Below are positions 2,966-44,951 of a stretch of 59,963 bases of DNA, one piece after another. The first letter of the stretch is position 1, and the number at the start of each line of letters is the position of its first letter. The DNA comes from Gammaproteobacteria bacterium (GTDB lineage: Bacteria; Pseudomonadota; Gammaproteobacteria; Steroidobacterales; Steroidobacteraceae), in the NCBI GenBank assembly GCA_027365225.1, contig DAHXNV010000012.1, forward strand, positions 1 through 59,963. Direction: 5' to 3'. Made by a program: the position numbers and the translations under genes. The notes under the pieces were generated by a model, which had not been told where the DNA came from, ran no database searches, and worked only from the letters and a program-made list of their open reading frames with translations.

Positions 2966-3799
2966 TTGAATAAGCAGTATGGTGTGATTCTTCTGGGACT
3001 GGCCGCGCTCGCGCCAGTGTTTTGCCCTGCGGCGCGCGCGGGCAACGTGGTCAATCCCTGCGCCGGTCCTTCGGGCCTGCTCGGTCTGCTCGATCGTCCC
3101 ACGATCGCCGATTCCAGCTGCGTGGTGCCGGACGGCAAAGCGGTGCTGGAGGCGGGCGTCACCGCCGGCAATCTGCCTGGGTCCGGCCTGCTCGGCGGGG
3201 TCGTCGATACGCTGCCCAATCTCGAGCTGCGATTCGGCTTGCCGGACCAGTCGGAGTTCGTCTGGCTGCCGCCGAATTATCAATATCTGTCGGTCAACGG
3301 CCAGCCGCCGGCGATGAGCGGTTTCGGCGCCACGACCATCGGCTTCAAGCACGTGCTCGGCACGACCCAACATTGGCAATGGACCGCCGAAGCGCTGGCG
3401 ACGCTCCCCTCGGGCGACGCGGAGTTCGGCAGCAATGGGGTCGGGGGCGCGGCCAATGCGATCGTCAGCTACAGCAGCAGCGGTCCGCTCGGGGTGTCGT
3501 TCCAGATGGGGGTCTCGTCGCAGACCGAGCCCACCCTCGCGGGCGGGCAGCGCTACACGAGCTTCAATCCCGACCTGGTGGTGACCTGGCTGTGGAATCC
3601 GCGCTTCCAGTTCTATGGGGAGATCTACGCGCAGTCCTCATCGGGATACGATCAGGGCTGGGGAACCGACGCGGACGGCGGCATTCAGTACCTCATCAAC
3701 CGCAACTTCGAGGTGGATCTGGAAGAGGGCGTGAGCGTCCAGGGGAACCTCGGCGGCTTCGCGAATTACACGGGCGCGGGGCTCGGAGTGTTGTTCTGA
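2966..3799 (+). CDS. Secreted/outer-membrane protein, likely Phenol_MetA_deg-like beta-barrel
   Basis: 277-residue exported protein. A signal peptide covers about the first 25 residues (ending PAARA). The mature part is rich in alternating aromatic and small residues, with pieces such as TIGFKHVLG, FNPDLVVTWLWNPRFQFYGEIYAQ and a final Gly-rich strand ending LGVLF, typical of outer-membrane barrels annotated as transporters of the meta-pathway phenol-degradation family. The start is TTG at 2966, because AGGAGG at 2953-2958 sits seven bases upstream and the signal peptide begins there; the frame is open further upstream without meaning. A broken paralogue lies at the window start. Substrate unknown. 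Confidence 0.7.
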   Translation: MNKQYGVILLGLAALAPVFCPAARAGNVVNPCAGPSGLLGLLDRPTIADSSCVVPDGKAVLEAGVTAGNLPGSGLLGGVVDTLPNLELRFGLPDQSEFVWLPPNYQYLSVNGQPPAMSGFGATTIGFKHVLGTTQHWQWTAEALATLPSGDAEFGSNGVGGAANAIVSYSSSGPLGVSFQMGVSSQTEPTLAGGQRYTSFNPDLVVTWLWNPRFQFYGEIYAQSSSGYDQGWGTDADGGIQYLINRNFEVDLEEGVSVQGNLGGFANYTGAGLGVLF

Positions 3800-41223: not shown

Positions 41224-41318
41224 GGGGGGCTCCTCCGTCAGTGGATCTGATCCCGGGTGGGCAGATCCTGAAGGCTAGGAGACTTTCTGGAATTTGTCCA
41301 GGAGCCGCCGGCGGCCAA

Positions 41319-41353
41319 GGTTGTGGTAAAGCGAGTTCTGAGTTCTTGAGGGG
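41319..41353 (+). repeat. Direct repeat copy 1 flanking the toxin-antitoxin module
   Basis: Begins GGTTGTGGTAAAGCGAG and continues through a TTCTTGAGGGGGA-like end. It closely matches 42305-42339 in the same orientation. The two copies bracket the PIN/antitoxin genes and the structured element at 41370-41530, so they may be traces of an insertion. Confidence 0.6.
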
Positions 41354-41369
41354 GAGGTCATTAACAAGC

Positions 41370-41530
41370 AATAAGCGCTGGATCGGGGCTTCTGCCCCGC
41401 CCAGCGCCATTGAGCCAAAAAGCGTGGTTTTTGGCTCAATGTCCGTCACCTGCGGCGGCGGGGCACTTCCCTGTGCCTGTCAGACGTTCGTGACGCTTCA
41501 TGGTTCGGGGTGAACGCGACTCCATGGGGA
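41370..41530 (-). repeat. Structured repeat element, copy A
   Basis: 161-bp element matching 56957-57118 in opposite orientation at about nine bases in ten by eye. Read on the minus strand it forms a hairpin with 12-bp perfect arms (ATTGAGCCAAAA side pairing with TTTTGGCTCAAT), a second with GCGCTGG/CCAGCGC arms enclosing GGGGC/GCCCC, and a smaller GGCAC/GTGCC hairpin. It begins one base after the toxin stop codon. With the direct repeat it fills the 308-base sodB-toxin gap. Confidence 0.8.
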
Positions 41531-41531
41531 A

Positions 41532-41957
41532 CTATTGGCAAACGTCCCACGGGTTCAAGAGCGACACGCCGAGTGGCGTGAAATCGGCGACATTTCGGGT
41601 CACGACCGTCAAGCCGTGCGTCAGGGCGGTCGCCGCGATGAACACATCATGCTCGGGGCGCGGGTCGGGAACGTGAAGGGATGCGCTGCGAAGCGCCACG
41701 GCCGTGTCGAGCGGCAGGGTTCGTTCCGCGAATTCAGGCAGGATGTGCTGATCCATCCAAGTGCGAAGCCTGGCGCCTTGAGCCGGATCGCGCCGCTCGA
41801 TCCGCAGGATGCCGAGTTCAATCTCCATCAGGGTAATGGCGGAGAGGTAGACGCTCGTAGAATCCACGCCGGACAGCCAGGCGACGACATTGGCGTCGGC
41901 TTTGCCGTCTCCAGCCTTGCGCAGCTCGGAAATGACATTGGTATCGAGCAGGAACAT
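41532..41957 (-). CDS. PIN-domain toxin (VapC/FitB-like)
   Basis: 141-residue PIN ribonuclease. Acidic active-site residues are visible in FLLDTNVISEL (first Asp), LMEIELGI (Glu), and HDVFIAATALTHGLTVVTRNVADF (later Asp pair). The NVISELRK start is typical of the FitB/VapC group. It probably cleaves RNA when free of its antitoxin. ATG 41957 overlaps the antitoxin stop by one base (TGATG); GTG 41960 is an alternative. Confidence 0.9.
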   Translation of the reverse strand: MFLLDTNVISELRKAGDGKADANVVAWLSGVDSTSVYLSAITLMEIELGILRIERRDPAQGARLRTWMDQHILPEFAERTLPLDTAVALRSASLHVPDPRPEHDVFIAATALTHGLTVVTRNVADFTPLGVSLLNPWDVCQ

Positions 41958-42211
41958 CACGAGAAATCGGCTGATCGGGCGAGTTCACGCAAGCGGGGCG
42001 GATCAAATTCAATGTCCGCGAGTCCTGGCATGGACAGGGCGTCAACGATATTCCGATGTTTGCCGATGATACGCTGATAGTCCTCGATGCTGAGCAGCAC
42101 ATGGGCGGGCCTGCCCCGGTCGGTGATGAACACCGGCCCTTTGGCGGCAGCTTTCTTGGCCCGGCTTGTGTCCTGATTGAACTCCCGGCTGGATAGGGTG
42201 GTGATGGTCAT
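41957..42211 (-). CDS. Phd/YefM-family antitoxin
   Basis: 84 residues. The N-terminal DNA-binding fold is TTLSSREFNQDTSRAKKAAAKGPVFITDRGRPAHVLLSIEDYQRI, matching Phd/YefM; the C-terminal part (DIEFDPPRLRELARSADFS) is the toxin-wrapping tail. It precedes the PIN toxin with a TGATG junction. It should repress its own promoter from the AT-rich region just upstream. Confidence 0.9.
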   Translation of the reverse strand: MTITTLSSREFNQDTSRAKKAAAKGPVFITDRGRPAHVLLSIEDYQRIIGKHRNIVDALSMPGLADIEFDPPRLRELARSADFS

Positions 42212-42239
42212 GGGCGACCCCCGTGGGTGAAGGGCAACA

Positions 42240-42275
42240 TCAACTATTGTATACACGTTACTACATATGATCTCC
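42240..42275 (-). promoter_or_regulatory. Probable toxin-antitoxin promoter/operator
   Basis: AT-rich patch upstream of the antitoxin. On the minus strand it contains TATACAAT (42253-42246) as a -10 and the palindrome GTATAC. No good -35 hexamer is visible. Antitoxin autoregulation here is expected from the family. Confidence 0.4.
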
Positions 42276-42304
42276 TTCGTCAACGCCGCTTTGGTTTCCT
42301 GCAC

Positions 42305-42339
42305 GGTTGTGGCAAAGCGAGCCTTGAGTCTTGAGGGGA
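42305..42339 (+). repeat. Direct repeat copy 2 flanking the toxin-antitoxin module
   Basis: Begins GGTTGTGGCAAAGCGAG and ends TCTTGAGGGGA. Same orientation as 41319-41353, differing at a few positions. It lies on the antitoxin side of the pair. Confidence 0.6.
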
Positions 42340-42441
42340 TGCAACGAGAAGGGTCGGGACTGACGCTGAATTGTCCGTGGGGGCGGTAGGACGTTGCGCA
42401 GCGGGGGATGTGCGCCGGCCGCAGACGCTCGAACTCCGCAC

Positions 42442-42470
42442 TTGCGCCGGCTCGCGCACCTGGATATAAT
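42442..42470 (+). promoter_or_regulatory. Strong sigma-70 promoter for a structured transcript
   Basis: TTGCGC (42442-42447), 17 bases, then a perfect TATAAT (42465-42470). This is the best sigma-70 promoter in the window. The predicted start near 42477 is about 250 bases before rlmKL, and the interval is full of hairpins. Confidence 0.75.
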
Positions 42471-42476
42471 GTCAGT

Positions 42477-42700
42477 CGCACGAACAACGTGCCTACCGCC
42501 GAGCGGGCGGGAAGTTACGCGCGGGGAGTAGCCTGCGCGGCGGAGGCAGCGAACGGGTAACCGTTCACCCGCCTCAGCGCCGCCCCACGAAGAACCGCGA
42601 ACCGGCCCAAAGGTCCTTGAAAGCACCAAGGCTTGCAAGGACCGAGATACGGCAAGTGCTGTCTGGAACGGCATGAAGACGTGTGGGGGCAGGACTCTAA
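42477..42700 (+). ncRNA. Putative structured non-coding RNA or long leader of rlmKL
   Basis: From the predicted start there are four successive hairpins. GCACG/CGTGC (42478-42492). CCGCC/GGCGG (42496-42510). A long stem at 42537-42583 with arms GCGGCG+GAGGC and GCCTC+CGCCGC capped by GAACGG-GTAA-CCGTTC, a GNRA tetraloop. And 42612-42643 with perfect GGTCCTTG/CAAGGACC arms and an inner AAGC/GCTT. No reading frame is convincing. It does not match RNase P, tmRNA, SRP or 6S RNA as I know them. The 3' end is undefined; the transcript may continue into rlmKL as a regulatory leader. Confidence 0.5.
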
Positions 42701-42728
42701 TGACTGATGCAGCTGAATTTCAGCCACC

Positions 42729-44951
42729 ATGCGCCGCGCGCGATCCGTGCCGGCCTCGCCTGACGTGAGCCCCCTGTCACTCCTGGCCACCGCGCCACGC
42801 GGGCTTGGCGATCTGCTCGCCGCCGAGCTCACCGCGCTCGGCGCCGAGGCGGTGCGCGAGCGATCCGCGGCGGTGAGCTTTGCCGGCACGCTCGAGACGG
42901 CGTATCGCGCCTGCCTGGAGTCGCGGCTCGCCAATCGCGTGCTGCTGCAGATCGCGCACTTCGAGGCGCCCGACACCGAATCGTTCTACGCCGCGGCGCG
43001 GGCGGTCGCGTGGGGCGAGCACCTGGGTGCCGGGGCGAGTCTGGCGTGCGAGTTCACCGGGCGCCATCCCACCATTGCCCACAGTCATTTCGGCGCGCTC
43101 AAGCTCAAAGACGCGATCGTAGATGCCATGCGCGCACCGAGCGGCGCGCGGCCGAGCATCGCGCTGGATCGTCCGGATGTGCGCGTGCATGCGCATGCCC
43201 ACGGCACGACCGTCACGCTCTATGTCGATCTTTCGGGGGAAAGCCTGCACCGGCGCGGCTATCGCGGCGAGGCGGGCGAGGCGCCGCTGAAGGAGAACGT
43301 GGCCGCCGGCGTGCTGATCCGCAGTCTCTGGCCGCAGCTCGCGGCCGAGGGGGCGGAGTTTCTCGATCCGATGTGCGGCTCGGGAACGCTCGTGATCGAG
43401 GCGGCGCTGATCGCCGCGCGGCGCGCCCCAAGCCTCGGCCGCGCGTATTTTGGCTTCCTCGGCTGGCGCGGCCACGATGCGCAGCTGTGGAGGACGGTCC
43501 AGGAGGCCGCCCGTTCGCGCTGCCTCGAGCGCGCGCCGGCGACACCGATGCTGCGGGGCGGGGACCTGGACCGCGCGGCCGTGCGCGCCGCTCTCGCCAA
43601 CGCCGAGCGGGCCGGCATTGCCGAATGGGTGCAGTTCGAGACCGGTCCTCTGCGGGCGGCACGCCCGGCGGGGTCGGGCACCGGGCTCGTGTGCACCAAC
43701 CCGCCGTACGGGGTACGTCTGATGGATCTCGAGCGGGCGCGCGCGACCCATCGGGAGCTCGGCGCGGTGCTGCGCGAGCACTTCCAGGGCTGGCGCGCGG
43801 CGGTGCTGACCGGGGCGCCGCAGTTCGGCATGGAGTTGGGGATTCGTGCCGCACGGACCCACTCGGTGTGGAACGGCGCGATCGAATGTCGGCTGTTGCG
43901 CATGAGCGTCGAGCCGCGCAGCCTGCGCCCGCCGGGCTCGCTGGCGCGGCCGGACAGCCCGCTCGCCGAGACGCCCGGCGCGCGCATGTTCGCCAACCGG
44001 CTGGCGAAGAATCTGCGGCAGCTGCGGCGCTGGGCCGAGCGCGAGGCGGTTTCGTGCTATCGCCTCTATGACGCCGACATGCCCGAGTATGCCTTTGCCA
44101 TTGACCAGTACGAGACGCTTGACCCGCTCGAGCGCTGGCTCTACGTGCAGGAGTACGCCGCTCCGGGGGACATCGACCCCGAGGCGGTGCGCCGGCGGCG
44201 CGGGGAGGTGTTGGCGAGTCTGCCGCGCGTGACCGGCGTGCCGCGCGAGCGGATCAGGGTACGGACACGCCGGCGTACCCGGCGCGGCGAGCAGTATGGC
44301 AAGGACGAGTCGCGCAGCGACGCGCTCGGTAGCCAAAACCCGGTCGTCACCGAAGGAGGATTGCGATTCGAGGTGAGCTTCGAGGAGTATCTCGATACGG
44401 GGCTGTTCCTCGATCATCGCCTCACCCGTGAGCGGCTGCGCGGGGCGGCCCGCGGCCGGCGCTTTCTCAACCTCTTCGCCTACACCGGCACCGCGACCGT
44501 GTACGCGGCCGCCGGCGGGGCCGTCGCGACCACTTCGGTCGATCTGTCGCGGACCTACCTCGATTGGGCGCGCCGCAATCTGCGGTTGAACGCGTTGCAG
44601 GACGGCCCGCATCGTCTCGTTCAGGCCGATTGTCGCCAGTGGTTGCGTGATGCGGCCGGCGAGCCGGCCCGCTTCGATCTCATCTTTCTCGATCCGCCGA
44701 CGTTCTCCAATTCCAAGCGCATGCAGGGTGTGCTCGACATCCAGCGTGATCACGGCGCGCTGATCGAGCAGTGCATGCAGCTGCTCGCTCCCGAGGGAGT
44801 GCTCGTGTTCTCGACCAACGCGCAGCGCTTCCAGCTGCACGCCGAGGTCGCAGTGCGCTACCGGGTGAGTGATATCTGCGCGGCGACGCTGCCGCGCGAT
44901 TTCGAGCGCAATCCGCGCATTCACCGCTGCTTCGAGCTGCGCGCGCGCTGA
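42729..44951 (+). CDS. rlmL: Bifunctional 23S rRNA methyltransferase RlmKL
   Basis: 740 residues. The N-terminal half is RlmL (G2445 m2G): THUMP domain, then SAM motif DPMCGSGTLVIEAALIAARRAP and catalytic TNPPYGVRL. The C-terminal half is RlmK (G2069 m7G): FLNLFAYTGTATVYAAAGGA and LDPPTFSNSKR. Such fusions are typical of gammaproteobacteria. The start at 42729 is the first ATG; a GTG about 13 codons later, at VSPLSLLAT, is an alternative. A long structured region with a strong promoter precedes it. Confidence 0.95.
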   Translation: MRRARSVPASPDVSPLSLLATAPRGLGDLLAAELTALGAEAVRERSAAVSFAGTLETAYRACLESRLANRVLLQIAHFEAPDTESFYAAARAVAWGEHLGAGASLACEFTGRHPTIAHSHFGALKLKDAIVDAMRAPSGARPSIALDRPDVRVHAHAHGTTVTLYVDLSGESLHRRGYRGEAGEAPLKENVAAGVLIRSLWPQLAAEGAEFLDPMCGSGTLVIEAALIAARRAPSLGRAYFGFLGWRGHDAQLWRTVQEAARSRCLERAPATPMLRGGDLDRAAVRAALANAERAGIAEWVQFETGPLRAARPAGSGTGLVCTNPPYGVRLMDLERARATHRELGAVLREHFQGWRAAVLTGAPQFGMELGIRAARTHSVWNGAIECRLLRMSVEPRSLRPPGSLARPDSPLAETPGARMFANRLAKNLRQLRRWAEREAVSCYRLYDADMPEYAFAIDQYETLDPLERWLYVQEYAAPGDIDPEAVRRRRGEVLASLPRVTGVPRERIRVRTRRRTRRGEQYGKDESRSDALGSQNPVVTEGGLRFEVSFEEYLDTGLFLDHRLTRERLRGAARGRRFLNLFAYTGTATVYAAAGGAVATTSVDLSRTYLDWARRNLRLNALQDGPHRLVQADCRQWLRDAAGEPARFDLIFLDPPTFSNSKRMQGVLDIQRDHGALIEQCMQLLAPEGVLVFSTNAQRFQLHAEVAVRYRVSDICAATLPRDFERNPRIHRCFELRAR

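Follow-up and report, generated by a model that had tools for sequence, protein, structure and literature searches.

Guide RNAs or transposon ends that lack a nuclease gene occur in stand-alone IscB ωRNA loci and in palindrome-associated mini-elements. The haloarchaeal sotRNAs (RF02656, RF02657) are ωRNAs of tnpB elements. For TnpB itself our background comes from PMC8612924, PMC12558985 and PMC10278001. As PMC8612924 describes it, the RNA bound by ISDra2 TnpB is about 150 nt long and joins the tnpB 3′ end and the right end of the element to about 16 bases of the adjoining DNA; in PMC10278001, processing of the guide RNA out of the tnpB mRNA is the reported route. A literature search, covering titles, abstract beginnings and few subscription journals, and therefore leaving absence unproven, returned no TnpB guide-RNA mini-elements that carry a promoter.

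The window analyzed here is a stretch of 59,963 nucleotides; G000 denotes its genome, other G numbers related genomes, L numbers loci, and C numbers contigs. Positions 42441-42701 are one copy of an element dispersed through the genus, and the flanks differ between copies. Sequence comparison leads us to read this element, with a probability of about 0.88, as a non-autonomous mini-transposon of the TnpB (OrfB_IS605) type, i.e., a self-promoted guide-RNA gene that lacks the tnpB coding part. It looks like a free-standing guide-RNA gene that has kept the tnpB promoter and has been copied around the genomes of one genus. Like the ISDra2 reRNA (or ωRNA), it combines the 3′ end of tnpB with the right end, goes with a TnpB of the same family and has a predicted guide derived from the flank. 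Unlike in ISDra2, the element is without tnpB and has its own promoter-like site, its scaffold is 207 bases long rather than about 150 nt, and its flank motif is CNNY rather than TTGAT. The haloarchaeal sotRNAs differ in that their Rfam families do not match the element. Compared with the stand-alone IscB loci and the palindrome-associated elements, the nuclease concerned is TnpB, and the deletion retains the tnpB promoter region.

With positions 42430-42735 as query against 99 related genomes, close copies were found at unrelated sites in the same genome and in relatives of the genus, chiefly G006 and G056. Two copies in G000, on C141 and C99, are 96 and 95% identical to the query. At a cutoff of E up to 1 the sequence search as a whole counted 93 of the 99 genomes, but much of what it listed is short and weak. 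A covariance-model search, in which 24 candidates were scored per genome under filters strict enough for copies to be missed, recovered the RNA from 24 of the 99 genomes, every one belonging to the window's genus, one of 24 genera. These amount to 4 matches in G000, 14 in G006, 20 in G056 and 22 in G042, some of which are pieces of one copy.

The scaffold occupies positions 42494-42700 of the forward strand and terminates in the transposon right end CTCTAA (42695-42700, same strand). Its assignment as a reRNA/ωRNA scaffold draws on homology to tnpB 3′ ends, on covariation, and on a match to covariance model R1 (1-208). In five loci (L045, L047, L052, L057, L070) the region homologous to the element adjoins a tnpB match, and in L045 and L047 the tnpB frame continues from ..RDVNAAKNLRAEGL.. 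across the scaffold, its stop codon being the TAA of the right end. The L047 protein has the domains HTH_OrfB_IS605, OrfB_IS605 and Cas12f1-like TNB, and it matches two TnpB chains of solved structure (E 4.5e-58 and 5e-58); in a single alignment of this single protein, its RuvC stretches align with those of a designed nuclease. TldRs, which are nuclease-dead TnpB regulators, have a mutated RuvC site; L047, the only protein aligned, retains these stretches. With the L047 protein as query, 26 of the 58 genomes of the genus give a match (E up to 1e-10), and two of the six near-full-length matches listed are free of internal stops, namely L047 itself (G055) and L045 (G022). The search of G000, an assembly that is 65.6% complete, revealed no intact TnpB: one match of 66 residues was obtained, and none to OrfB_IS605. 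This absence may reflect a gap in the assembly, since several of the tnpB matches are cut off by a contig end. The scaffold is best read as the right-end guide RNA of a TnpB, with the host DNA past CTCTAA as its predicted guide.

Upstream of the scaffold lies a promoter-like site (42442-42470, forward strand) whose homologs in full elements precede tnpB. The first-pass annotation had placed TTGCGC at 42442-42447 and TATAAT at 42465-42470, with a spacer of 17 bases, and both hexamers are exactly there. Its description of this site as the best sigma-70 promoter in the window finds no support, however: the −10 hexamer is perfect, but the −35 hexamer is weak, agreeing with TTGACA at 3 of 6 positions, and the site fell below the threshold of a consensus promoter scan of 41500-43500, which reported 0 promoters. 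The predicted 5′ end of the RNA, at 42477-42493 of the forward strand, aligns with tnpB starts and seems to be what is left of the first codons of that gene; in the predicted fold this segment can form the hairpin GCACG-AACAA-CGTGC. No terminator-like site was detected within 41500-43500, so transcription may possibly run on into rlmKL downstream.

The origin of this arrangement is suggested by two families of copies, A and B. The family A left end, together with the promoter, aligns upstream of tnpB in all five loci aligned (in G006, G000, G056, G022 and G042), which points to an internal deletion that joined the guide RNA to the promoter of tnpB; this is our best reading of the element. The family A left end matches 21 of 51 tnpB or Y1 loci, several matches being partial and some representing the same place twice, while the family B left end matches none of the 51 listed. 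As judged by eye, about 12 bases that include the tnpB start codon are absent from three aligned mini-copies and from the window, and the next tnpB codons enter the scaffold near TACCG, which is found at both ends of the lost part. A first fuzzy promoter pass gave 96 rows with many chance matches and was replaced by one with 14 family A and 38 family B rows, of which 2 of the former and L047, L065 and L069 of the latter still appear by eye to be chance. Of the 14 family A rows, 9 have an exact TATAAT and 1 (L039) has an ATG after the −10 region and before the scaffold; an ATG so placed occurs in 7 of the 38 family B rows. Some of the rows are chance matches. In all nine family A mini-copies read, a stop or a frameshift interrupts the tnpB frame, which is open in all four tnpB-type scaffolds (L045, L047, L052, L056). 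Family A has ends in common with the autonomous element and has its coding part deleted, as is required of an IS200/IS605 mini-element; the left end of the window copy itself is not of the family A type.

The first-pass annotation had also described a highly structured RNA of no class it could name, and on both counts our calculations agree. The fold of 42477-42728 has an energy of −108.7 kcal/mol, compared with −92.29 (sd 4.65) for shuffled sequences (z −3.53); 0 of 200 shuffles are as low, and the fold contains both the GTAA-capped stem and the 8-bp arms. A whole-window Rfam search returned nothing at gathering score, and positions 42380-42800 gave only three sub-threshold microRNA matches (E 1.4, 5.6 and 8.3), all on the reverse strand. 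The compensatory changes that the annotation had proposed to look for were found. When family A scaffolds are aligned with those of the tnpB type (16 sequences), 97.7% of cells pair, and at 18 of the 56 pairs both partners vary with pairing preserved. This count, which is favored by a consensus fold derived from the same alignment, exceeds that of any of 500 shuffles and those obtained when partners are slid by 1 to 3 columns. In the 24 family B scaffolds the signal is weaker, with 7 of 39 predicted pairs covarying. Altogether the scaffold pattern gave 62 rows, 40 of which were used in alignment A1 (16 in A3 plus 24 in A2), including one truncated copy (L184). The other 22 were dropped by eye: four are family A copies of G056 with about 80 extra bases within the scaffold (L038, L040, L041, L042), five look real but have odd ends or lengths or are near-duplicates (L070, L182 at 907-1090, L189, L195, L203), and the remainder look like chance pattern matches. 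The region behind the promoter-like site is a conserved, structured and probably non-coding RNA.

By its position past the right end, and by analogy with ISDra2, the predicted guide comprises the first 16-20 bases of the flank (42701-42720, forward strand), within the rlmKL leader. In most copies shown, similarity stops at the right end or within a few bases of it. An exception is the pair L069 and L076 (each at 3001-3179, in species G011 and G037), whose 3′ flanks are nearly identical, so that they would have the predicted guide in common. Allowing up to 3 mismatches, the 21 bases at 42705-42725 occur nowhere else in G000. A scan of 102 loci showed the left-flank motif CNNY, a candidate TAM, at every one of the 15 left ends in family A, of which two (L045, L210) stand before tnpB, and at 19 of the 26 in family B; at the base frequencies of the window, this motif is expected by chance at about 0.16 per site. 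Clean empty sites were not obtained for the sister copies L071 and L072, where the relatives hold about 23 and 47 bases on the left that G000 lacks. In the mechanism that we propose, the RNA would begin near 42477, pass through the scaffold into flanking DNA, and be loaded in trans by a TnpB produced elsewhere in the cell. The guide from 42701 on would then direct TnpB to cut alleles without the insertion, and repair would copy the element back, by analogy with what is proposed for ISDra2 in PMC8612924. Movement of the element would require a transposase in trans. Y1_Tnp matches are present in 12 of 58 genus genomes; the one in G000 (L213, C77:11-370) is a candidate for moving the element.

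If this reading is right, the element would show a transposon guide RNA turning into a gene of its own. That is, one deletion would place the guide RNA under the tnpB promoter, and processing from the tnpB mRNA would be unneeded. This might be a step from a transposon toward multi-guide systems, and a structured RNA missing from Rfam would gain a name and a seed alignment.

The window copy stands 28 bases before the start of rlmKL (42729-44951, forward strand; RlmL_1st, THUMP, RMKL-like methyltransferase and Methyltrans_SAM). On its other side lies a degenerate left part of the insertion (42302-42440, forward strand), which G056 also has at its orthologous locus, with identity at 114 of 132 aligned bases; it aligns with the family A left end over only 1 and 4 columns, that is, without detectable similarity, and by eye its right half (about 42390-42440) resembles the family B left region. 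With so degenerate a left end, the copy may be immobile. G056 carries an element at the same place, before an rlmKL that is 98% identical. Between the two loci the left part is 86.4% and the right flank 98.0% identical, but the element is 76.9% identical with 52 gap columns. Comparison of the window element with six family A copies gave identities of 93.8-95.8%, and that of the G056 element with one family B copy gave 84.2%. These comparisons suggest an old insertion, common to the window and G056, in which the G056 scaffold comes from another subfamily; promoter and scaffold look replaced in place, with the guide kept. The window copy may instead conceivably be a chimeric assembly; its 11 to 16 base differences from each of the six copies argue mildly against simple filling-in. 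We suggest, with considerable doubt, a more general scheme in which TnpB guide-RNA mini-elements are dispersed, trans-acting, self-promoted guide genes, and a newer subfamily can replace a resident promoter and scaffold in place, the guide staying and the insertion thereby being kept matched to the current TnpB.

Could the element be a decayed remnant with no present function, whose RNA may be made although its cognate TnpB is gone? The lack of an intact TnpB in G000 and the degenerate left end of the window copy are what one would expect, and this explanation deserves some weight. Nevertheless, we regard it as somewhat unlikely: the element remains close to its six family A relatives, pairing has been kept through compensatory change across the family, and the missing TnpB may lie in an assembly gap. 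A new class of host small RNA, one of the two alternatives offered by the first-pass annotation, would account for the promoter-like site, the structure and the lack of an Rfam match. It is already contradicted by homology to the tnpB 3′ end and by the dispersal of the copies, and we consider it hardly credible.

The other alternative was a regulatory leader of rlmKL, and in a related form the insertion would have been co-opted as promoter or leader of that gene, perhaps with the leader as the target of a nuclease-dead TnpB. The 28-base spacing, the lack of a detected terminator and the occurrence of the insertion in two species would fit such a role. However, a search for rlmKL gave matches in 53 of the 58 genomes of the genus, and among the 29 loci compared besides the window's own (30 in all; blastn, E up to 0.001), a homologous element precedes the gene in G056 only; it was not found in the other 28, G042 included, although a very divergent one could escape. 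Moreover, the same element occurs at numerous unrelated sites, its relatives are tnpB 3′ ends, 42705-42725 matches only its own place in G000, and the RuvC stretches are kept in the TnpB examined (L047). A regulatory leader is thus unsupported, and co-option seems to us improbable. A PIN-domain and Phd/YefM pair of the toxin-antitoxin type, not found at the same place in G056, lies nearby on the reverse strand (window 41532-42211), between the two copies of a direct repeat about 37 bases long, at 41316-41353 and 42302-42338.
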